From Thermoplasmata archaeon (GTDB lineage: Archaea > Thermoplasmatota > Thermoplasmata > Lutacidiplasmatales > UBA184), in NCBI GenBank assembly GCA_030041075.1, contig JASHOP010000059.1, positions 1 to 32,859 of the forward strand: a stretch of DNA of 32,859 bases. Reading direction: 5' to 3'. The notes below the pieces were generated by a model. It ran no database searches and was not told where the DNA came from. It was given only the letters and a program-made list of their open reading frames with translations. The position numbers and the translations under genes were made by a program. Below are positions 1,209 to 23,667 of the stretch, one piece after another (position 1 is the stretch's first letter; each line of letters starts with the position of its first letter).

Positions 1209-1724
1209 ATGCTTCCGGGAGTGCGTGTCCTCGACCTCACACGTAACATCGACGAACGCGGTTCATTCACCGAAATCCTCCGTGAAGATTGGACATCCTT
1301 CCTCGGATCTGAACGACCGGTGCAGGCGAACTTCTCTCTGTCTTTCCCCGGCATGATTAGAGCCTGGCACCGTCACGAGCGAGGCCAGTACGACATCTTC
1401 GTAGTCGTTCGGGGATCCCTCAAAATCTGCGCCTACAACGATCTCGGAGACCCTCAGAACGGAGAGCTGGATGAAGTGGTCTTGAGCGGCGACCGGTTCC
1501 AAGCGGCCATGGTGCGGGGGCATTACTGGCACGGCACGAAGTGTGTAAGCTCCCGTCCATCCGAGACGATCTACTTCGTGACACGGCTCTACGACCCCAA
1601 GTCGCCCGACGAGATTCGTCGCCCCTGGAACGATCCATCGATTGTTCCGAAGTCGATCAACGGCAATGCCAAGGACCCCCGGATCGGGAAGGCGTGGGAC
1701 TGGAACGCGCCCCCGCACAAGTGA
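1209..1724 (+). CDS. rmlC: dTDP-4-dehydrorhamnose 3,5-epimerase-like cupin (RmlC)
   Basis: RmlC epimerises C3 and C5 of dTDP-4-keto-6-deoxyglucose, the third step to dTDP-L-rhamnose, in the cytoplasm. The 171-residue protein matches the family length. It has the opening V-L-D-L...DERGSFTEI, the conserved GMIRAWHRH segment carrying the active-site histidine region, and the C-terminal YDPKSPDEIRRPWNDP block. The ORF track starts at 1176; I prefer the ATG at 1209 because the TATA box covers 1171-1178, a G-rich stretch precedes this ATG, and the family alignment begins at MLPGVRVLDL. The stop is 5 bp from rmlD, so the two genes are probably co-transcribed. A related sugar 3,5- or 3-epimerase is the main alternative. 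Confidence 0.85.
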   Translation: MLPGVRVLDLTRNIDERGSFTEILREDWTSFLGSERPVQANFSLSFPGMIRAWHRHERGQYDIFVVVRGSLKICAYNDLGDPQNGELDEVVLSGDRFQAAMVRGHYWHGTKCVSSRPSETIYFVTRLYDPKSPDEIRRPWNDPSIVPKSINGNAKDPRIGKAWDWNAPPHK

Positions 1725-12463: not shown

Positions 12464-12768
12464 GTCGTCTCCGGTCGAGGCTTCACCGGGGGAAGTCGGG
12501 CCGGCAAGCTGCCGAAAGACGAGCTGGCGAAGGTCGCGGCGTGTCGCCGCGTCGCGCGCGAGGAAGGGGCGCCGCCTCGGCCGAGTCCCATCGGTGCATC
12601 CATCGCCATGCTCGGAACCTCCATCCGTCCCGCGGGGGAATCGGCCCCGGTTCGAGGCCGGTGCCGGGCTTACGAGCCCGAGCGCACTCCGACGTGGTCG
12701 ATGCCGTGTCCCGAGACGCGGTGCTGTCCCACGGACCCGTCAGGGACCCGAAGCCCGGGCCATCACGG

Positions 12769-12777
12769 TTTATCTAC
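12769..12777 (+). promoter_or_regulatory. TATA-like box of the giant stalk-protein gene
   Basis: TTTATCTAC lies about 35 bp before ATG 12808, predicting a leader of roughly 10 nt. It excludes the 267 bp added by the ORF-track start. Confidence 0.5.
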
Positions 12778-12807
12778 CCGTGGCTCGTTGGCGCGGCGGA
12801 GCCTTCC

Positions 12808-15800
12808 ATGAGGACGAGTCCATCGAGCCGAGCCCCCGCGGTCGTTAGCGTTCTGATCGTTGGCCTGTTCGTCGCTTCGGCTCTGACCGCGATCGGGGCG
12901 GACCGCGGGGCGCCCGTTTCCGCCGGCCCGGCCCGCTCCTCCGGGACCTCCGGGGTCGCCCCCCTCGTGACCTCCCCGTACAACCTCACTCTCGATCCGG
13001 TCATCTTCTCCACCTACTACGCCTCCAACGGGACCGGGATCGCCTCGACGGTCGTGGTGACGAACGGGGCCACGTTCGGCTCCGGGTTCACCGTCGACTT
13101 CTGCGTCAGCACGTCGGAGACGTTCAACGGCCCACCCTCGCAGGAGGTCGGCAGCATCGTCCTGAACGCCGGCCAGACGGCCCTCGCGAACACGCTGGTG
13201 ACGTTCTCGGACTCGCAGAGCACGATCCTGGACGGAGCCGGCACCTACTACATCGCGGCCACCGACTCCGTGGGCGGCTGCGGCGGCGGAGCGTCCTCGT
13301 ACTCCAACGCCACGAAGATCACCACGACGACGGTCGCCCCGACGCTCGCGTTCGCCTCGCCGGACACGGTCGGGGCGACCGACGCGGTCTCGGGAGCGCA
13401 CTGGGACGCCAACGCGACCCTCACACTCCACCTCAACAACCTGACCGGTCGCACGCTGGCGACCCTGGAGACCAACGCGGAGGGCAACCTCACCGCCGGC
13501 TCCTCGTTCGTCGTCCCCACCCTGCCGTACACCCCTTCGGGATACACCCTCGTCGCGCAGGAGACGGCGCCGACCGGCGGTCTGTACGGAATCAGCGTCG
13601 CTCGGGCGTTCCAGATCGAGTCGAACGTCTCCGCGACGCCGTTCTTCTTCAGCGGCAAGGCCGGGATGACGCTCGACCTCACCGGGACCGGGTTCGCCGC
13701 CGGGGCTACGATCGCCAAGAACTCAATCACGGTCGCCGGAGTGGCCACATCCCATGCCGCTGTGACGACCGCGAGTTCGGGCGGCTTCAACGTCACCGTG
13801 ACGATGGATACGTCGATTCCACTGAGTCCCGGAGGCTACGAGTCGATCGGAATCACCACGTCCCCGGGCTCGTCCCGGACCACGTTCCCCGACCGGATCT
13901 TCGTGTCGAGCCCCAGTCCGGGTTCCCTCCAGTTTACGTTGAACACCTCCTCCGTCGTGTACGGGAGCTCGATCCTCGCCCGGGCGTGGAACTTCCCCGC
14001 CGGCGCCTCCCTGACCTTCTTCGCCGGCTCGACCGTTCTCGGCACGGTCGTGGCCAGCTCGCTCGGCTTCGCGCAGCTCGTCACCACCTTCCCGGCCATG
14101 CCGGCCGGGACGTACGACGCGTACGCGGCCGACGCGGCGGCGGATCTCGTCTCGCCGACCGTCTCCGTCACGGTCAATCCCCGGTACTCGGCCCGGGACC
14201 CGACCGGGTTCTCGCTCCCCACGACCGCCCCGACCGAGTACGTGCCGAGCAACGGCACGATCGGGGTCCAGGCCTACGGCCTCTCGCCCGCGACCGGTAT
14301 GACGTTCACCGACACCGTCTGGACCGGCGTCGTCGCCGGCAACTCGATCGGCCTCGCGTCGTCCCAGGGGTACGCGGCCATCGCGATATCGGTCGGATCG
14401 CTCAACGCCTCCACCGGCGTCTTCACCCCCGCCCCGAACGGGACGCTCGCCTTCGCCTACCTGCCCGACTACGCGCGGATCCCCTCGCTCGCGACCGGGA
14501 CGCTCGAAGAGATCGGCAACGCGAGCGTCGCCTTCGGTTCGTACGCTACGGTCACGGCCCCCGACCTGTCGAGCATCGCGGAGTACGCCGCCTTCCACAC
14601 CGGGACCGACGTGACGATCACGATCAGCAACCTGATCCCCCAGTCAGCCCGCCTCTACCCGGGATCGACGGCCGACTACAATGTTCTCCTGGGCGCGACG
14701 GTCCTCTCGGGGCTCACCGGTTCGACCTGTCCGGCCCTCACTCCCACGGTCTGCTACGGAGCCGGCACGCCCGCCGCGACCCTGACCCTCAAGTTCGCCG
14801 TGCCGATTCCGGCGGGCCTCCTCCCGCTGACGATCCGGTACAACGGCTCGACCGCGGCGCTCGCCTCGGTCTCCGTGCTCGTCTCGCTGCCGGGGGCGGC
14901 CCCGGGCGACGGAACGCTCGAGGCCGTCGTGGACCCGGTCTCCCACAACACGGAGATCGTCGGCTTCGACCTCTTCCCCTCCACCCTGAACTACACGCTG
15001 TACGTCTCGAACCTGTCGACGTCGGCGGGCGTGGACTCCACGATCGCGCCCGCGGTGGGTCCCTCCGGCGCGCTCGGTCCGATCGACATCTCGAGCCCGG
15101 TCGCCTACACGAGCGAACCGGCGGGAACCTACGCGGTGTATCTCCTCTACAGCAACGCGACGACCTCGGCGTCCGTCAGCACGACCTACACCGTGGCGCT
15201 CGGCGCGCTCGACGTGTCGCCCGGCAGCGGGCCGGTCGGGGACTCGGTCGTCGTTTCCACGACCGGACTCGATCCCGGGTCGTACTACGACGTCTACCTC
15301 GGCTCCGCGCTGTGGATCGCGGGCCAGTCGTCGTCGAACGGGTCGTTCGCGGCGACCGGATCGGTGCCGCGCGTGGCCGAGGGGACCTACACGATCTCGC
15401 TCGACCCGGCCGGATCGACCTCGCCGGTCGAGAGCGCGCCGTTCTCGGTGACGGGCACCGTGTCGCTCGTCACCGCCGGCACCGACCAGCTCTACGCGTT
15501 CCCGGGCGAGCTCGTCGACTTCGCATGGGACGTGGCCGGCGTGGCTCCCCCCTCCCAGTACCCGTTCACCGTGACCGTTCTCCTGAACGGATCGGCGTAC
15601 GAGACCGAGGCCGGGATCCTCAACGGAACGACCATCGAGGGCAGCTTCACGATGCCGAACGCGTGTCCGGGCTCGGAGACGTCGTGCGGAGGGGGTAGCT
15701 ACTGGTGGGTCACGCTGGATTGGAGCCAGGTCTACGTCGTCGGCGGCATGGTGATGACGTCCGGCTACAACGACACGGACCCCGCCTACCTGGAATTGGT

Positions 15801-17226
15801 CAGCGGCAACGGCGCGCTCGTCCTGAGCGTCACGCCGACCGACATCGCGGAGATCGCCACGCTCACGGGGCAGGACGTGAACGTCACGCTCGAGGCCCTG
15901 GACGCCAAGATCTCGGGCGTCTGGGCCAGCGGGAACACGACCTACGCGCAGCTCGCCACCGACTTCGGCGACATGAACGTCTCGCTGGCGACGCTGAGCG
16001 CGAAGATCTCGGGCGTCTGGGCGAGCGGGAACACGACGTTCGTCCAGCTGAAGACCGACTTCGGGGACGTGAACGTCACCCTCGCCGACCTCAGCGGGAA
16101 GATCTCGAGCGTGTGGGCGAGCGGGAACACGACGTTCGTCCAGTTGAAGACCGACTTCGGGGACGTGAACGTCACCCTCGCGGCCCTGAGCGCGAAGGTC
16201 TCGGGCGTCTGGGCGAGCGGGAACACGACGTTCGTCCAATTGAAGACCGACTTCGGCGACCTGAACGTCACGCTGGCCTCCCTCAGCGCCAAGGTCTCGG
16301 ATGTCTGGGCGAGCGGGAACACCACCTACGCCCAGCTGAAGACGGACGTCGGGGACCTCAACGTCACGCTGGCGTCGCTCGGCGCCAAGATCTCGGGCGT
16401 CTGGACGAGCGGGAACACCACCCTCGTCGAGCTGAAGTCGGACATCGGGGATCTCAACGCGACGCTCGCGTCCCTGGGCGCGAAGATCGCCGACGTCTGG
16501 GCGAGCGGGAACACCACCGACGCCGAGCTGAAGACCGACTTCGGGGATGTGAACGTCACCCTCGCCGACCTGGGCGCGTCGGTGACCACCGTGGTCGACG
16601 GCAACGCCAAGATCGAGACGTCGCTCGGGAACGTCACCGCGTCGCTCAAGGCGATCAACGCCACGGTCAACTCGATCGAGTCGACCTCGTTGACGCTCAG
16701 CACGACCCTGGGCGAGGTCCACACGACCCTCAACGCCGTGAACGCGAACCTGAGCGCCGTGAGGAACGACGTGCTCGAGCTGACCACCGCCGTCGGGGAC
16801 CTGAACCTCAGCGTAGCGTCGCTGAACGCGACCCTCACCCTCGTCAACGGCACCGTGTTCACGATCTCGACCAACCTGGGCCGGGTCGAGGCGTCGCTGA
16901 CGAGCGTGGCGACGACGGTCACGGCGATCAACTCGAGCACGAACTCGCTGCTCGGGTCGACGGTGATCGTGAAGACCGACCTGGGCGACCTCCTCGGCAC
17001 GGTCGACCTCGTCAACGGCAACGTGACGACCGTCGAGACGGGGATCGGCCAGCTCCTGATGTCGACCGCCGCCATCCAGGCGGCGCAGGGATCGCAGCCG
17101 ACGACCGGCGACCTCAACGGCGTGGCCGACCTCGTCTACGTGTCGATCGCGCTGATCGCCGTGACGCTGGCGCTCGCCCTCCTCCTGTTCCTCGGGTGGA
17201 CCCGACGCCGCGGGGGAACGCTGTAG
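12808..17226 (+). CDS. Giant membrane-anchored surface protein with 32-residue repeats and coiled-coil stalk
   Basis: The 1472-residue protein has a signal peptide (VVSVLIVGLFVASALTAIG). About 1000 residues of Ser/Thr/Gly-rich beta-sandwich-like sequence follow, with many N-glycosylation sequons. Seven exact-length 32-residue repeats span residues 1034-1257. About 180 residues of heptad-like sequence (for example TLGEVHTTLNAVNANLSAV) come next. A C-terminal membrane helix (VSIALIAVTLALALLLFLGW) ends in the basic tail TRRRGGTL, so the protein is displayed outside and anchored by its C-terminus. No enzyme motif is seen; a stalked S-layer or adhesin role is inferred. The start follows the TATA box. 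The overlapping 570-, 926- and 792-residue ORFs in other frames are shadows favoured by high GC. Confidence 0.85.
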   Translation: MRTSPSSRAPAVVSVLIVGLFVASALTAIGADRGAPVSAGPARSSGTSGVAPLVTSPYNLTLDPVIFSTYYASNGTGIASTVVVTNGATFGSGFTVDFCVSTSETFNGPPSQEVGSIVLNAGQTALANTLVTFSDSQSTILDGAGTYYIAATDSVGGCGGGASSYSNATKITTTTVAPTLAFASPDTVGATDAVSGAHWDANATLTLHLNNLTGRTLATLETNAEGNLTAGSSFVVPTLPYTPSGYTLVAQETAPTGGLYGISVARAFQIESNVSATPFFFSGKAGMTLDLTGTGFAAGATIAKNSITVAGVATSHAAVTTASSGGFNVTVTMDTSIPLSPGGYESIGITTSPGSSRTTFPDRIFVSSPSPGSLQFTLNTSSVVYGSSILARAWNFPAGASLTFFAGSTVLGTVVASSLGFAQLVTTFPAMPAGTYDAYAADAAADLVSPTVSVTVNPRYSARDPTGFSLPTTAPTEYVPSNGTIGVQAYGLSPATGMTFTDTVWTGVVAGNSIGLASSQGYAAIAISVGSLNASTGVFTPAPNGTLAFAYLPDYARIPSLATGTLEEIGNASVAFGSYATVTAPDLSSIAEYAAFHTGTDVTITISNLIPQSARLYPGSTADYNVLLGATVLSGLTGSTCPALTPTVCYGAGTPAATLTLKFAVPIPAGLLPLTIRYNGSTAALASVSVLVSLPGAAPGDGTLEAVVDPVSHNTEIVGFDLFPSTLNYTLYVSNLSTSAGVDSTIAPAVGPSGALGPIDISSPVAYTSEPAGTYAVYLLYSNATTSASVSTTYTVALGALDVSPGSGPVGDSVVVSTTGLDPGSYYDVYLGSALWIAGQSSSNGSFAATGSVPRVAEGTYTISLDPAGSTSPVESAPFSVTGTVSLVTAGTDQLYAFPGELVDFAWDVAGVAPPSQYPFTVTVLLNGSAYETEAGILNGTTIEGSFTMPNACPGSETSCGGGSYWWVTLDWSQVYVVGGMVMTSGYNDTDPAYLELVSGNGALVLSVTPTDIAEIATLTGQDVNVTLEALDAKISGVWASGNTTYAQLATDFGDMNVSLATLSAKISGVWASGNTTFVQLKTDFGDVNVTLADLSGKISSVWASGNTTFVQLKTDFGDVNVTLAALSAKVSGVWASGNTTFVQLKTDFGDLNVTLASLSAKVSDVWASGNTTYAQLKTDVGDLNVTLASLGAKISGVWTSGNTTLVELKSDIGDLNATLASLGAKIADVWASGNTTDAELKTDFGDVNVTLADLGASVTTVVDGNAKIETSLGNVTASLKAINATVNSIESTSLTLSTTLGEVHTTLNAVNANLSAVRNDVLELTTAVGDLNLSVASLNATLTLVNGTVFTISTNLGRVEASLTSVATTVTAINSSTNSLLGSTVIVKTDLGDLLGTVDLVNGNVTTVETGIGQLLMSTAAIQAAQGSQPTTGDLNGVADLVYVSIALIAVTLALALLLFLGWTRRRGGTL
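15907..16578 (+). repeat. Seven tandem 96-bp repeats encoding a 32-residue glycosylatable unit
   Basis: The unit reads approximately K-I-S-G-V-W-A-S-G-N-T-T, then F-V-Q-L-K-T-D-F-G-D, then V-N-V-T-L-A-x-L-S-A. Unit starts fall every 96 bp (15907 for the first, 16483 for the seventh), with no insertions. A partial copy precedes the array. Most units carry two N-linked sequons (NTT, and NVT, NVS or NAT). The middle copies are nearly identical at DNA level, suggesting recent duplication or gene conversion. Confidence 0.9.
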
Positions 17227-17424
17227 TCGACGGGTCCGCCGATCGAGCTCGCCCCGCGCTCGCGATCGATCGGCCCGGGGCGAGGGCCCCGGTGGGGTCC
17301 GCCGACCCCGACGGTCGCCCGCGCTCGGGTCGGGGCTCCGGCCGCCGGTGTCTTCGGGTCGGGCCGGGCGGACCCGTCGCGGGCCGCAAGGCGTTCGCCC
17401 CGGGCGTCGGAGGTGCCGGGACAA

Positions 17425-17433
17425 GCATTATCG
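17425..17433 (+). promoter_or_regulatory. TATA-like box of the 159-residue membrane protein gene
   Basis: GCATTATCG is the only AT-rich stretch in the 240-bp gap. It lies about 38 bp before ATG 17467, predicting a leader of about 11 nt. Nothing else is recognised in 17227-17424. Confidence 0.4.
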
Positions 17434-17466
17434 GACCACCCGAGGTCGTACCCTCGAGTCCGCGCG

Positions 17467-17946
17467 ATGCCGAACCCGGAGTCCCCGCGAACCCGCAAGC
17501 CGAGCTCTCCGAAGCCGGGGGTCCTCAAGCCCGCGGCGCCCAAGCAGGGCCTGCGTCGCTGGACGTTGTCGTTCACGATCTCGGGCGTCATGATCGTGGC
17601 GGTCGTCGCCGCGTTCGCCGGGGTCCCCGTGGCCCAGTCGACGCCGTTCGCGTTCTCGATCACGAACCCGGGCAGCTCGATGACGCCCTCCAACCACACG
17701 ACCTCCTTCGCCCATGCCGGGACGATCGTGTTCACCTGGTCGAAGTCCGGGGCGAACGGCGTGACGTTCTCGGTCCGGGTCGCTTCGAGCGGCGCGCTCC
17801 TCTACTCGATGTCGGCGACCGTCGCGAACGTGACCCTCAGCGTGCACGCCGACACGCCGTACAAGTTCGGCGTCCAGACGCAGTACGCGACCACGGTCTC
17901 GGTCTCGGGGAGCCTCGACTTCAAGGCGCCGGTGCTCACCCTCTGA
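17467..17946 (+). CDS. Small single-pass membrane or secreted protein, unknown function
   Basis: The 159-residue protein has a Pro/Lys/Arg-rich cytoplasmic start (RTRKPSSPKPG) and one hydrophobic segment (FTISGVMIVAVVAAFAGVPVA). An outward beta-rich domain of about 105 residues follows, with NHT and NVT sequons. No family is recognised. The basic start followed by a single helix suggests a type II membrane protein, although cleavage after the helix is possible. It lies between the giant stalk protein and the PadR-ABC operon and has its own TATA-like box, so a link to either is only positional. The ORF track begins at GTG 17413, which lies before the promoter; ATG 17467 is preferred. Confidence 0.65.
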   Translation: MPNPESPRTRKPSSPKPGVLKPAAPKQGLRRWTLSFTISGVMIVAVVAAFAGVPVAQSTPFAFSITNPGSSMTPSNHTTSFAHAGTIVFTWSKSGANGVTFSVRVASSGALLYSMSATVANVTLSVHADTPYKFGVQTQYATTVSVSGSLDFKAPVLTL

Positions 17947-17999
17947 GCTCCGCGTGCCCGTCCCGCGTCCCTGCCCGCGGAGCCGGGGCGTCCTCCTTG

Positions 18000-18013
18000 T
18001 ATCGAAATCGATA
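18000..18013 (+). promoter_or_regulatory. Inverted-repeat operator overlapping the PadR promoter
   Basis: TATCGA AA TCGATA is a perfect 6-bp inverted repeat with a 2-bp spacer, overlapping the TATA-like CGATATA at 18009-18015. It ends 30 bp before the PadR ATG at 18044, so a bound dimer would block TBP. Autoregulation by PadR is inferred from position; PadR proteins are winged-helix dimers that bind palindromes. Confidence 0.6.
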
Positions 18014-18043
18014 TAGCCATCGAACGCCGGCGGGGGGCCGTCG

Positions 18044-18553
18044 ATGCCGGGGCGGATCATCGGCCTCTACGCCCTCGCGTTGATGGATCGGGACGGTCCG
18101 GTCTACGGCTACCTCATCTCCCGCCGGATCTCCGAGCGCACGGGAGGGGCCTGGAGCCCCGGGGCGGGGGCGGTCTATCCCGCGCTTCGGGCGCTCGTGG
18201 ACCGGGGCCTGGCCCGGAGCGGCGGCGGGGGCCGCCGGCGCGAGTACCGGATCACGGCGGCGGGCCGCGTCGCGCTGCGGCGGCTGCGGCGCGAGTCGCT
18301 CTCGGCGGGCCGTTCCGCACCCGACCTCAGCGTCCTCTGGGCGGACGTCGTGGGCCGGCGCGACCTCGGCCCGTTCCTCCTCCACCGGCTGCGCCGGACG
18401 ATCCGGGCGCTGGAGGCCCAGTCCGGGCGCCACGCGGAGTCGCCCGCGGCCCGCGCGCTGCGACGGAACGTGCTCCGCGAGCTCGCCGCCGCCCAGCGGA
18501 GGATCGCTGGCGACCGTCGCTCGCCCCGGGTCCCGGGGGAAGGATCCCGATGA
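18044..18553 (+). CDS. PadR family transcriptional regulator
   Basis: The 169-residue protein has the PadR winged-helix domain in its first 85 residues: IIGLYALALMDRDGPVYGYLISRRI, then GAVYPALRALVDRGLAR, then the wing and YRITAAGR. A basic, helical C-terminal region follows (LLHRLRRTIRALEAQ), as expected for dimerisation. PadR proteins commonly repress adjacent transporter genes and lose DNA binding when they meet a ligand. Here the gene overlaps the ABC ATPase gene by 4 bp (ATGA), giving translational coupling, and a palindrome covers its promoter. A repressor that controls its own exporter operon is the simplest reading; the ligand is unknown. Confidence 0.88.
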   Translation: MPGRIIGLYALALMDRDGPVYGYLISRRISERTGGAWSPGAGAVYPALRALVDRGLARSGGGGRRREYRITAAGRVALRRLRRESLSAGRSAPDLSVLWADVVGRRDLGPFLLHRLRRTIRALEAQSGRHAESPAARALRRNVLRELAAAQRRIAGDRRSPRVPGEGSR

Positions 18554-19554
18554 GCGCTCCCCCCGATCGGAGCGCCATCCTCGTGAACGACCTGTCGAAG
18601 CACTACGGCTCGCGCGACCACCCGGTCCGGGCTCTCGACCACGTCTCGCTCCGGATCCCGTCGGGGACCGTGTTCGGCCTGCTCGGCCCGAACGGCGCGG
18701 GCAAGACGACCCTCATCAAGGTCCTCACGGGGATAACCGACGCCACGGCCGGGGAGGCGAGCGTCGCCGGGTTCGACGTCCGGCGGCAGTCGATGGCGGT
18801 CCGCGCCCAGATCGGGTGGGTCGCGGCCGAGGTGATCCTCGACGACGACTTCAGCGCGCGGGAGAACCTCTGGTTCCAGGCGAAGCTCCAGGGTCTCAAG
18901 GGCTGGGAGTCGCGCGCCGAGGACCTGCTCGCGTTCTTCTCGCTCGCCGACCGGGCGGACGACAAGGTCGGCAAGTTCTCCACGGGGATGCGCAAGAAGC
19001 TCGAGATCGCGCTCGCGCTCCTCCACCAGCCGCTCGTGATCTTCATGGACGAGCCGACGATCGGCCTCGACGTCAGCACCCGGCGGATGCTCTGGGAGAT
19101 CGTGACCGGGGTCCACCGGGAGTTCGGCGTCACGGTCCTCCTCACGACCCACTACATCGAGGAGGCCGACGCGCTGTGCGACCGCGTCGCGATCATCGAC
19201 CAGGGGCGCATCCTCGCGGAGGGCACGCCGTCGGAGCTCAAGGGCCGGGTGAAGGCGGACGTCGTCGAGCTCGAGACCTCCGAGCCACTCGAGGCGGCGC
19301 GGCTCTCGGCGCTGCCGGGGGTCCAGGAGGTCCACGCCCAGGGCAACGACTGGACGATCCGCGTCGGCACGTCCGACGACTTCCTGCCGCGGCTGTTCGC
19401 GACGATCCGGCCCGACCGGATCCGGCGGATCAGCGTGGAGAAGCCGAGCCTCGAGACCGTCTTCCTCGAGGTGACCGGACGGAGGCTCGGCCAGGACGAG
19501 CCGATCCGCGACCTAAGGAAGTTCTACGCCCAGATGCAGAGGGCGCGCCGATGA
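18550..19554 (+). CDS. ABC transporter ATP-binding protein (DrrA/CcmA-like)
   Basis: The 334-residue nucleotide-binding subunit powers the permease encoded next. Visible motifs are Walker A GPNGAGKTT (46-54), a signature motif in the variant form FSTGMRKK (143-150), Walker B VIFMDEP (163-169) and the switch histidine in LLTTHYIEE (H201). About 100 further residues form the C-terminal domain seen in daunorubicin-type exporters. The start overlaps PadR by 4 bp, and the stop overlaps the permease start by 4 bp. Drug, lipid or glycan export is possible; the substrate cannot be read from sequence. Confidence 0.92.
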   Translation: MSAPPDRSAILVNDLSKHYGSRDHPVRALDHVSLRIPSGTVFGLLGPNGAGKTTLIKVLTGITDATAGEASVAGFDVRRQSMAVRAQIGWVAAEVILDDDFSARENLWFQAKLQGLKGWESRAEDLLAFFSLADRADDKVGKFSTGMRKKLEIALALLHQPLVIFMDEPTIGLDVSTRRMLWEIVTGVHREFGVTVLLTTHYIEEADALCDRVAIIDQGRILAEGTPSELKGRVKADVVELETSEPLEAARLSALPGVQEVHAQGNDWTIRVGTSDDFLPRLFATIRPDRIRRISVEKPSLETVFLEVTGRRLGQDEPIRDLRKFYAQMQRARR

Positions 19555-20327
19555 GGATCCCGTGGAGCCCGTTCTGGGGCCTCTACTGGCGGGAGATCGT
19601 TAGGACGTTCCGCAACCCGTTCGTCCTCCTGATCACCGTCGTCCAGCCGTTCATGTGGCTCGCGTTCTTCGGCAGCAGCTTCTCGCTCCTGCCCGCGTCC
19701 GAGCTCGAGGGCCTGTTCGGGGCGTCGAACTACATCCAGTTCCTTCTCCCCGGGGTCCTGTCCACGTCGATGCTCACGGTCGGGATGTTCGGCTCGATGA
19801 GCACAATCCAGGACAAGCGGTTCGGTTTCATGAAGCGGATCCTGATCACCCCGACCTCGAAGGGGACGGTGTTCGTCACGAAGGCGCTCGGGTCCGCGTC
19901 GCGCGGGCTCGTGCAGTTCCCCGTGATGATCGCGGCGGCGCTCGCCTTCGGGGTCTCGTTCCACCTCTCGCCGCTCCAGTGGGCGGCCTGGGTCTCCGCG
20001 CTGATGCTCCTCGCGATCGGCTTCTGCAGCCTGTTCCTCGCGATCACCGCCCGTTCGACCGACTGGCAGACCCCGGGGGTGGTCTCGAACTTCATCACCA
20101 TGCCGCTCATGTTCGCGAGCGCGGCGCTGTTCGGCAGCAGCCACTTCCCGGTCTGGATGCAGACGATCTCGAAGGTGAACCCGATCACGTTCTCGGCGCT
20201 CCTCGGGCGCAGCTTCATGCTGGGCACCGCGACGAACTGGTGGGACCTCGGGTACCTCGCGCTGTTCTCCCTGACGATGCTGGGTGTCGGGTACTTCGTC
20301 TCGAGCCGCTGGCTCCGCGTCGAGTGA
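19551..20327 (+). CDS. ABC-2 type transporter permease
   Basis: The 258-residue membrane subunit begins MRIPWSPFWGLYWREIVRTFRNPFVLL, typical of the ABC-2 exporter family. It has about six hydrophobic segments and the family-like central stretch KRFGFMKRILITPTSKGTVF. The C-terminal part carries the conserved segment VNPITFSALLGRSFMLG. The ORF track merges it with a shadow frame starting at 18816; ATG 19551 overlaps the ATPase stop and follows an AGAGGG SD-like site. With PadR and the ATPase it forms a compact three-gene exporter operon. Confidence 0.9.
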   Translation: MRIPWSPFWGLYWREIVRTFRNPFVLLITVVQPFMWLAFFGSSFSLLPASELEGLFGASNYIQFLLPGVLSTSMLTVGMFGSMSTIQDKRFGFMKRILITPTSKGTVFVTKALGSASRGLVQFPVMIAAALAFGVSFHLSPLQWAAWVSALMLLAIGFCSLFLAITARSTDWQTPGVVSNFITMPLMFASAALFGSSHFPVWMQTISKVNPITFSALLGRSFMLGTATNWWDLGYLALFSLTMLGVGYFVSSRWLRVE

Positions 20328-20488
20328 GCGACCCGAAGAGGCGGCGAGGCGGGTCCGGTAAGACGAGGGGCATGGGACGCTGGGGGGCTGTGCAGCGGCA
20401 CCCTTTCGCCTCGTGCGAGCGGTGTCCCAGCCGTTCCACGCCCTGTTCGGACCGGCCCATGGTGGGCACCCTCCGAACCGTCCCGAAC

Positions 20489-20511
20489 GTTCTTTAGGGC
20501 GGTATCGCCCT
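20489..20511 (+). promoter_or_regulatory. TATA-like box and palindromic operator of the two-gene cassette
   Basis: GTTCTTTA (20489-20496) is followed directly by AGGGCG-GTAT-CGCCCT (20496-20511), a perfect 6-bp inverted repeat with a 4-bp spacer. Start spacing from the box predicts a transcript beginning near the ATG at 20522. The palindrome lies between box and start, a good site for an autorepressor. Confidence 0.55.
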
Positions 20512-20521
20512 GCGGACGACG

Positions 20522-20698
20522 ATGACAGGGCCTCCCGCTGGGCTACCGTGGACGGACGTGACCGTCGGAACCCAGACCGTGAGCGTCTTCCGTGGCTTCC
20601 CCCGGCACTTCTACGCGCTGGACCCCACCACAGGCAGCGTGGTCAGCGGAACGACGCTGGACGCCGTGGTCGAGCGACTGAGAGCCCACGTCGGGTGA
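20522..20698 (+). CDS. 58-residue protein, possible antitoxin-like partner (DUF5678-like)
   Basis: This ORF is too short for the ORF track. It reads MTGPPAGLPWTDVTV at the start and ends LDAVVERLRAHVG. The middle (FRGFPRHFYALDP, then GSVVSGTTLDAVVE) resembles small DUF5678-type proteins, in which a short beta unit with a YALDP/VVxxG pattern precedes a helix; this is a visual resemblance only. The ATG follows the TATA/palindrome region with almost no leader. Its stop codon lies inside the SD site of the next gene, 5 bp before that start, so the two are coupled. Small size, order and coupling recall antitoxin-toxin pairs. Confidence 0.55.
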   Translation: MTGPPAGLPWTDVTVGTQTVSVFRGFPRHFYALDPTTGSVVSGTTLDAVVERLRAHVG

Positions 20699-20701
20699 TC
20701 C
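20694..20701 (+). promoter_or_regulatory. Ribosome binding site embedded in the upstream stop codon
   Basis: GGTGATCC is perfectly complementary to the usual archaeal 16S 3' end (GGATCACC). It contains the TGA stop of the 58-residue ORF and lies 2 bp before ATG 20704. This decides the start of the HEPN-like gene and supports the small ORF as real. Confidence 0.55.
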
Positions 20702-20703
20702 GG

Positions 20704-21108
20704 ATGGCGACCGAGACGCACCCGGTACCCGTGGGGGATGCGCTCCTGGGGGGAGCGAAAGAGTACCGGGAGGGGGCGGCCCAGCGGAACCGCCTCAAGG
20801 TACGAGAGGCGGCGGAGAAGGTGTGGCGGGCCGTCACCCAAGCGACCGACGCCTCCATTTACGGGGCTACCGGGGCGCGAGTGGAGTTCAACTCCGAGAG
20901 GCTCGAGGCTCTCGAGGAGATGGGACGAGGCGACCTCGCCGGTAGGGTCGCGGAGATCGCCCAGCTCGTCCATGGAGACTGCTTCTACCACGGCTACTGC
21001 ACCAACGTGGACGTCCGGATGGAGGAGGCGTGCCAGCTCGTCCAGGACATCACCGGCGATAGCTCGTACCGCGAGACCTTCCGAAGCGCGCTCCGAGGGG
21101 ACGCGTAG
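20704..21108 (+). CDS. PaREP1/HEPN-like helical protein
   Basis: The 134-residue protein is mostly alpha-helical. It carries the PaREP1/HEPN-like pattern in VREAAEKVWRAVTQATDAS, and near its end LVHGDCFYHGYCTNVDVRMEE, where the family usually has a helix with LH and FY. HEPN-type proteins act as RNases or nucleotide-transferase partners in toxin-antitoxin and defence modules. The canonical Rx4-6H RNase motif is not evident here (the nearest R and H are too far apart), so RNase activity is uncertain. The track starts at 20413, which reads through the upstream small ORF in another frame; ATG 20704 has a strong SD site. It is convergent with the glucoamylase gene. Confidence 0.65.
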   Translation: MATETHPVPVGDALLGGAKEYREGAAQRNRLKVREAAEKVWRAVTQATDASIYGATGARVEFNSERLEALEEMGRGDLAGRVAEIAQLVHGDCFYHGYCTNVDVRMEEACQLVQDITGDSSYRETFRSALRGDA

Positions 21109-21261
21109 GGAGGCGTAGACCGCTGGCCGAGGTGAGCCGGCCGATCGGGGCCGCGGTCGCCCGTACGTCGTCCTCGCCCCGTTCGGTGGCAGCCCCATCC
21201 GGTCCGGAGGGCGACGACCCTGAAGGGACTCGGTGTCGCCGGATCCCCGGAGCGACTGGCG

Positions 21262-23667
21262 CTAGCCCGGCGCCGCCGCGCGAGCCTCGAAGTCGCGTCC
21301 TTCCCAGCGGTCCGACTCCGGCCAGTAGAACGTGAACCTCCACGAACGGTCGGGCCCTCGAAGCGGGGCGAGGTCGACGAACTCGAGTCCCAGGCCGGTG
21401 CGGCGGGACTCGAGGCTCTGGAGCGTCCCCCAGCCGTCGTCGCTCGCCCGCAGCCGGAACGGGGCTCCGGCGACGACCCGGAGGGTCGCTTCGGGGGGGA
21501 CCCGCGACGTCTGGCGGTTGAACGTCCAGTACTCGAGGGTCAGGGGCCGTCGCTCCCGGCCCTGGTACCGCTCCGCGACCGCCGGCACCCGATCGAACAC
21601 CGCTCCGTCGGCCGACGAACGCAGGAGCTCGAGGTACTCGGCGTGGGCCCACGCGAGCGGCATCGCCGCCTCCGTCGGCCGCCCGAGCTCGAGGTAGAGG
21701 GACGGGAGGTCCGGCCCGTCCCAGACCTGCTCCGTCACGAGGCCCGTGGTCGTCGCGAACCGCTCCATCGCCTCGAGGTACGGCGCGGGGTCGTTGCCGG
21801 CGGCGAGCTCGTAGTGGCCCCGCTCGCCGGTGAGCACCGGCCACCCCCGGCCCTGGCCCCAGTCCGTGTAGGGGCCCCCGTCGTCCCGCTGGCCGTACCC
21901 GTCGCGGTTGTACCGGCGCCAGACCGGTCCGAACGGCGTGTCGACCTTCAGGACCCGGTCGACGACGCGGAGGGAGTCGACGACGAGCGGATCGTCCGGG
22001 GCGCGGACGCCGTAGCGGACGAGGTCGAGGAACCCCGCGTCGACGATCTCGCTCGCGGGGAACGCGTTGGGGGTCCCGGGCGGAAGGTTCGGGAGCCAGA
22101 CGGTCCCGAGGTCGGGCCCCTCGTCCGGGACCGTGCTGTGGACCGACGCCGGCCGGACCCGGACGTAGTGGCGGGGGACCCCCTCCACCAAGGTCCCGCT
22201 CCGCGTGACGGTCCAGAGGTCGACGTGGGACTCGAGGAAGTCCGCGTAGTCCTGGATGAACGCCGCGGAGGCGGCGTCGCCGCCGGCCCGGACGAACCCC
22301 GCGGCGACGGTGAGCGCGGCGATGCTCGTCGCGATCGTCGACGGCGAGTAGCCCCCGACCTCCTCCCAGCGATCCTCCTCCGTCGCGGGACCGCGCTCGA
22401 TCAGGAAGCGGGCGCCCTGCCGGACCATCGGCTCGGGGTCGAAGCCGGAGTTGCCGCGCGTCTCCTTGAGCTTCGCGGCGAGCAGGATCGGAAGCGCGAC
22501 CTCGTCCAGCTGGACCCCGTGCCAGTACGGCGTGCCGTCGACCCAGAAGTTCTGCGGGAAGCCGCCGTCCGGCTTCTGCTGGGTCGCGAGGTAGACGAGC
22601 GCCCGGAGGGCCGTCGTCTCGGCCCCGGAGGCGAGGAGCCCCAGGGCGCAGTGCGCCATGTCCCGCGTCCAGACGAGGTGGTAGCCGCCCCGGTCCTCGT
22701 CGGTCTGGGCCGCCCCCCACGGGATCGAGAGGGAGGCGATGAACGCGCCCGGGAACAGCTTGTCCTCGTGGGCGAGCAGGGTGGCCCGGCTCGCGTGGTA
22801 GAGCCGGCCGCCGTCCCCCGAGCGCCGGGCGAGGGGGAGCTCGTGCGCAGCGGTCCGCTGCCACTGGTCGAGGAAGCGGCGGTGGTGGAGCTCGAACGGC
22901 GTGGCGAGCGACTGGTGGAGCGTCGTCACCGCCGACTGGATCGAGTCGCCGAAGGCGACGCCCAGGGTGAACTCGGTGACCTCCCCGACGGGGAGCTCGC
23001 CCGTCAGCGCGACGTTGCCGTCCGGCGCCCGGTCGAACTCCCAGGCCATCGACCCGTGCTGGGCGATGTCGGTGTAGCCGTCGCTCGCGCCGACGTACCC
23101 GACCGAGCTCCGGGCGAACGGAAGGGTGGCCATCACCGCGAGGGCGGTCCCGCCCTTCTCCGCGGCGAGCACGTGTCTTCCCAGGAGCTCGTAGACGGTC
23201 GCGTAGTTGCCCCAGCCGCCGACCTCGAGATGGGGCGCGACGAGCGCGAACAGGCGCAGCTTGCCGACGAGCTCCGGGTCGAGCACGTCGAGCTTCGCCC
23301 GGACGAGGAGGCACGGCTGGTGGGGGTCGGCGATCACCGACTTCACGAGGCGGAAGCGACCGCCCGGCTCCTCCGACCGGACCGTGAACCCGAGCGCGCG
23401 CTCGTTCGGGCGCTCGGTGGTCGCGTCGAGATGGCGCTTCTCCTCGAGGAACAGCGACCCGCCGTCGGAGAACAGGAACTCGAGGTCGCGAAGCTGCGGG
23501 CGGTCGATCCTCGGGTAGTAGACCTCGGTCACGATCCCGCGCCAGAGGGTGTACCAGAGGCGCGAGTCGGACGAGTAGGCGGTCCCGATGCCTTCCTTGT
23601 TGCTGTGCGACCACCGCGGCTCGATCCCCGGCCCGCCGAACGCGAGCCGATCCCCCCGGGGCTGCAC
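21262..23667 (-). CDS. Glucoamylase, glycoside hydrolase family 15
   Basis: GH15 glucoamylases release glucose from non-reducing ends of alpha-glucans. The 801-residue protein has an N-terminal beta-sandwich (about 1-270), then an (alpha/alpha)6 barrel with YHLVWTRDMAH and the general acid in VQLDEVALP (E389). The general base is in LAWAHAEYLEL (E677). About 100 beta-rich residues follow (WRFTFYWPESDRWEGRDF). No signal peptide is visible, so it probably acts in the cytoplasm on stored glycogen or maltooligosaccharides. The start is GTG with a GGAGG SD site 7 bp upstream and a TATA-like stretch near 23704-23716. An overlapping 854-residue frame is a shadow. Trehalase-like GH15 members are an alternative. 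Confidence 0.9.
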   Translation of the reverse strand: MQPRGDRLAFGGPGIEPRWSHSNKEGIGTAYSSDSRLWYTLWRGIVTEVYYPRIDRPQLRDLEFLFSDGGSLFLEEKRHLDATTERPNERALGFTVRSEEPGGRFRLVKSVIADPHQPCLLVRAKLDVLDPELVGKLRLFALVAPHLEVGGWGNYATVYELLGRHVLAAEKGGTALAVMATLPFARSSVGYVGASDGYTDIAQHGSMAWEFDRAPDGNVALTGELPVGEVTEFTLGVAFGDSIQSAVTTLHQSLATPFELHHRRFLDQWQRTAAHELPLARRSGDGGRLYHASRATLLAHEDKLFPGAFIASLSIPWGAAQTDEDRGGYHLVWTRDMAHCALGLLASGAETTALRALVYLATQQKPDGGFPQNFWVDGTPYWHGVQLDEVALPILLAAKLKETRGNSGFDPEPMVRQGARFLIERGPATEEDRWEEVGGYSPSTIATSIAALTVAAGFVRAGGDAASAAFIQDYADFLESHVDLWTVTRSGTLVEGVPRHYVRVRPASVHSTVPDEGPDLGTVWLPNLPPGTPNAFPASEIVDAGFLDLVRYGVRAPDDPLVVDSLRVVDRVLKVDTPFGPVWRRYNRDGYGQRDDGGPYTDWGQGRGWPVLTGERGHYELAAGNDPAPYLEAMERFATTTGLVTEQVWDGPDLPSLYLELGRPTEAAMPLAWAHAEYLELLRSSADGAVFDRVPAVAERYQGRERRPLTLEYWTFNRQTSRVPPEATLRVVAGAPFRLRASDDGWGTLQSLESRRTGLGLEFVDLAPLRGPDRSWRFTFYWPESDRWEGRDFEARAAAPG

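Follow-up and report, generated by a model that had tools for sequence, protein, structure and literature searches.

The question raised by this locus is whether two small neighbouring genes, coding for proteins of 58 and 134 amino acids, constitute an autoregulated toxin-antitoxin module, as the original prediction proposed from their arrangement, or were brought together in another way. To begin with, both genes are carried by a segment of ~0.93 kb (934 bp), located between the convergent genes of an ABC-2 permease and a GH15 protein in the 32.9-kb window, that is, the whole stretch of DNA analysed (Table 1). Orthologues of the permease appeared in 55 of the 78 genomes of the genus, and among the 29 other best same-genus permease loci, the permease and GH15 genes were directly adjoining in 15 (12 gaps measured by script and three adjacencies found by tblastn). 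In the 12 genomes of the genus with a measured gap, its length lay between -53 and +72 bp, compared to 934 bp here. The segment is an insertion relative to the sister genomes, at a defined spot with a documented empty site; its loss in all the sister genomes rather than its gain here is formally possible and less economical. It is present as a single copy in its own genome, the DNA of the 77 other genomes of the genus gave only short matches at chance level, and the pair of genes was found in one species only. Moreover, the GC3 of the pair was 0.81 and 0.86, as against 0.92-0.97 in the flanking genes. The 0.93-kb insertion itself is not marked by an integrase, by terminal repeats or by a target duplication (the last being judged by eye), and a mobile cassette with terminal inverted repeats was discarded, as the best pair of repeats (20458-20480/21200-21222) was reached by 26 out of 60 first-order Markov shuffles. 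Scanning the window for Rfam families and for tRNAs gave no matches. In another genome (G352, locus L103), a different single ORF, S-adenosylmethionine methyltransferase-like as named from its sequence only, lies between the convergent permease and GH15 genes; the spot therefore seems to be tolerant of insertions, which suggests a recurrent acceptor site.

Table 1. Features of the locus, in window coordinates.
Feature	Position	Strand	Basis
ABC-2 permease, bordering the insertion site on the left	19551..20327	+	PF01061
Segment taken as acquired, ~0.93 kb	20328..21261		Empty site in relatives
6+6 inverted repeat AGGGCG-GTAT-CGCCCT, flanked by the weak TATA-like box and the ATG of the 58-aa gene	20496..20511		Sequence
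58-aa protein gene, ATG ORF of 58 codons	20522..20698	+	Relatives, codon-position divergence, AF2 model
Shine-Dalgarno-like GGTGATC, contains the TGA stop of the 58-aa gene	20694..20700	+	Sequence
134-aa PaREP1/HEPN-T-like protein, ATG ORF of 134 codons	20704..21108	+	PF05942 sub-threshold, homologues, hhalign, alignment
GH15 glucodextranase-like gene, bordering the insertion site on the right	21262..23667	-	PF09137/PF00723

The distribution of both genes was patchy and independent. A profile of the 134-aa protein had matches in 9 of the 103 genomes of the family, at different loci, and the 58-aa gene was missing upstream in all 13 homologous loci considered at family and class level, which include three weak matches and one locus (L005) with only about 120 bp upstream before the contig end; a fourteenth locus (L012), starting at a contig end, was excluded. 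In particular, the four closest homologues, which belong to the same genus and are 37-43% identical, all lack the 58-aa gene. Two of them share a locus between MFS/PhoU-like and tryptophanase-like genes, another is upstream of an ArsR-type gene and the remaining one is at a contig end, the neighbours having been read as ORFs only and named from their translations. On the 58-aa side, none of the three relatives had a 134-aa relative nearby, an absence of limited power because this family is very small. The explanation that we favour, and consider probable, is that acquired DNA placed a small gene associated with mobile elements upstream of a PaREP1-like HEPN gene that usually stands alone. A horizontally acquired stretch of ~0.93 kb would have settled between two convergent genes, where insertions are tolerated, joining a mobile-element-associated 58-aa gene, predicted to encode a compact beta-beta-beta-beta-alpha domain, to a PaREP1-like gene as a short operon. 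Their shared message would have little or no leader, and translation of the second gene from it would rely on a Shine-Dalgarno sequence of its own, overlapping the first stop codon. As to the 134-aa protein, it may be a helical, HEPN-like member of the mobile pool of conflict genes that interacts with RNA or acts in regulation, rather than a classical Rx4-6H RNase, and the 58-aa protein may be an accessory protein of elements with no obligate link to it, these biochemical roles being the least certain step of the proposal.

A rather unlikely alternative is that the 134-aa gene is the functional unit, with the 58-aa gene as a passenger giving only promoter and translation signals. This would agree with the solitary 134-aa homologues having their own upstream regions, and with the small number of 58-aa family members, one of which (L029, about 1470-1629, minus strand) contains an in-frame TAG; however, at this locus the 58-aa frame has no interruption, and both its composition and its divergence are of the coding type.

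It is also unlikely that the pair is a rare genuine two-gene toxin-antitoxin module, in which one protein would be toxic and the other would neutralise it, their complex binding the palindrome and repressing its own promoter. The layout on which the original prediction was based was confirmed in the source genome, where a compact and insertion-borne operon presents the small protein first and the HEPN-like protein second, with a Shine-Dalgarno site spanning the first stop codon. The motif of this site, GGTGATC, would be complementary to the 16S 3' end, as is general in archaea, and it is rare in the 32.9-kb window (14 occurrences on both strands), so its location immediately ahead of the second start is probably not due to chance, and the stop-overlapping Shine-Dalgarno of the 134-aa gene appears to be real. 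The predicted palindrome is likewise present, next to a TATA-like box (TTCTTTAGGG) that is weak. However, a total of 218 perfect 6+6 inverted repeats with a loop of 0-8 were found in the window (23 of them with a 4-base loop), which amounts to one per ~150 bp, and at such a background frequency the palindrome alone is no evidence of the promoter or operator that had been read into it. Furthermore, a conserved toxin-antitoxin module was ruled out by the distribution of both genes described above: the pair is unique to the source genome, and the joint conservation across genomes by which type II toxin-antitoxin systems are recognized was not found. The neighbourhood search suggested by the original prediction thus had a divided outcome, as the 58-residue frame was conserved in its homologues, but next to other neighbours, and the downstream gene was without it at all 13 homologous loci. 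A downstream gene consistently found alone was the second of the two outcomes named there as refuting an autoregulated pair, a reading that these comparisons do not sustain. The known MNT-HEPN toxin-antitoxin systems, in which HEPN proteins are partners (PMC2701414), likewise present a HEPN-like protein in a two-gene operon; in contrast, the partner gene here codes for something other than a nucleotidyltransferase, the catalytic motif of HEPN is lacking and the pairing is not conserved. In particular, the 58-aa protein had no nucleotidyltransferase match and its length is insufficient for one, the flanking genes of the window code for an ABC transporter and the GH15 protein, and no PADLOC match was obtained. 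Overall, sequence comparison offers no support for a toxin-antitoxin module, and an operon-like layout with a palindrome can resemble such a system without any conserved partnership.

Regarding the 134-aa protein, the HEPN/PaREP1-like family that had been guessed for it held. Its score against PF05942 (PaREP1) was 17.7 bits, under the curated cut-off of 24.4, and that of a bridging class-level homologue was 23.7 bits, also under the cut-off, while 5 of the 12 aligned members of its family matched PF05942 at E <= 0.01. When compared by hhalign with two above-cut-off Thermoplasmata PaREP1 proteins, the AAEKxWxA and the conserved LHxxxF/Y motifs were both aligned (P=0.00066), with a probability of only 27%. 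The protein is also similar to the PaREP1/PaREP8 proteins (PF05942; HEPN-T Parep1/8 group) in size, in its predicted all-helical architecture, in the retained histidine (H90, kept in 11 of the 12 aligned homologues) and in the absent arginine of Rx4-6H. This canonical HEPN RNase motif was, as originally noticed, not found, the nearest preceding arginine giving an R-x8-H that is not conserved. The PaREP1/8 HEPN family is characterized by a conserved histidine and the loss of the Rx4-6H arginine (PMC3710099, Table 1); the missing arginine is therefore the published state of this family and no pointer to a new effector, contrary to the variant effector initially suggested. The single-sequence model was all-helical with low confidence (pLDDT 60), and Foldseek searches with it listed 2q00, used as the reference for the four-helix HEPN bundle, and 2hsb at non-significant E-values of 1.7-2.7. 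Moreover, solved structures searched by sequence gave no credible match, and viral, phage and plasmid collections gave no matches. Unlike PaREP1/PaREP8, the 134-aa locus has no RHH fusion, tandem PaREP copies or MNT/REase neighbours, and the gene is preceded here by the unrelated 58-aa gene; in an earlier toxin-antitoxin survey, PaREP1 proteins were fused to RHH domains and none was in an operon with MNT (PMC2701414). Because its PF05942 score is below the curated cut-off, the protein is called PaREP1-like only, and was not filed as a member of PaREP1/PaREP8. The range of PaREP1-like HEPN proteins is thereby extended to a Thermoplasmata genus that is still uncultured. It is unlikely that the pair is a conflict module of recent assembly, with a PaREP1-like HEPN protein, devoid of the usual catalytic arginine, under the control of a small protein from mobile elements that represents a new family.

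The preferred reading, in which an element-associated gene was placed upstream of the PaREP1-like gene, also draws on the family of the first gene. Three relatives of the 58-aa protein, 40-48% identical, were found among the 106 genomes of the order, all in genomes of its family, with E-values of 6e-10 and 1e-8 from the single sequence and a weaker third of 8e-4; a profile of the four members found no fifth at E <= 0.001 in those 106 genomes. The divergence per codon position from the two intact relatives was 0.38/0.38/0.62 and 0.36/0.36/0.61. This third-position bias, together with the significant relatives, indicates that the predicted 58-residue frame is a real gene, and both frames of the pair are real. 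The AlphaFold (AF2) model obtained with the two intact relatives presented four short strands and a C-terminal helix (pLDDT 83). It is hardly conceivable that the 58-aa frame is open by chance, leaving the 134-aa gene as the only real one, as the absence of Pfam, NCBIfam, PHROGs or PADLOC matches for the small protein is set against its relatives in three other genomes, their coding-type divergence and this confident model.

Foldseek searches with the 58-aa model gave nothing significant, listing the T. thermophilus protein 2yzt, which we take to be UPF0150/HicB-like, and the lambda Int N-domains (1kjk, 2wcc) at E-values of 2.5-3.4. Short strands followed by a helix are shared with the lambda-type integrase arm-binding domain and the UPF0150/HicB-like small proteins, and one 58-aa relative is coupled to a tyrosine recombinase; this is a topology lead only, the fold matches having all been non-significant (E-values of 2.5 or more) and Pfam having given none. 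A HicB relationship was discarded, no profile alignment with a HicB-like protein having been obtained. All three relatives start inside the stop (ATGA) of unrelated upstream ORFs, namely the tyrosine recombinase (PF00589, 27.0 bits for a cut-off of 27.1) adjoining a tRNA-Lys in L027/L048, an ORF of 104 aa in L028/L049, on a contig that also carries a tRNA-Ala, together with a HicB-like gene, and, for L029, an unnamed ORF. The 58-aa protein defines a tiny new protein family, in one case tied to a recombinase beside a tRNA gene. That region (L048, 3668-5354) probably represents an element integrated in the genome of a Thermoplasmata MAG; besides the tRNA-Lys and the tyrosine recombinase, it contains the relative, which is 123 aa long and has an additional tail with cysteine. 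The HicB-like antitoxin gene (PF21748, PF15919) is located at positions 1709-1924 of L028, on the same contig as the family member.

Finally, elsewhere in the window, a very long frame with high GC3 was observed at positions 12541-17226. It is overlapped by another frame (15705-18083) with repeated segments, possibly coding for a repetitive surface protein.
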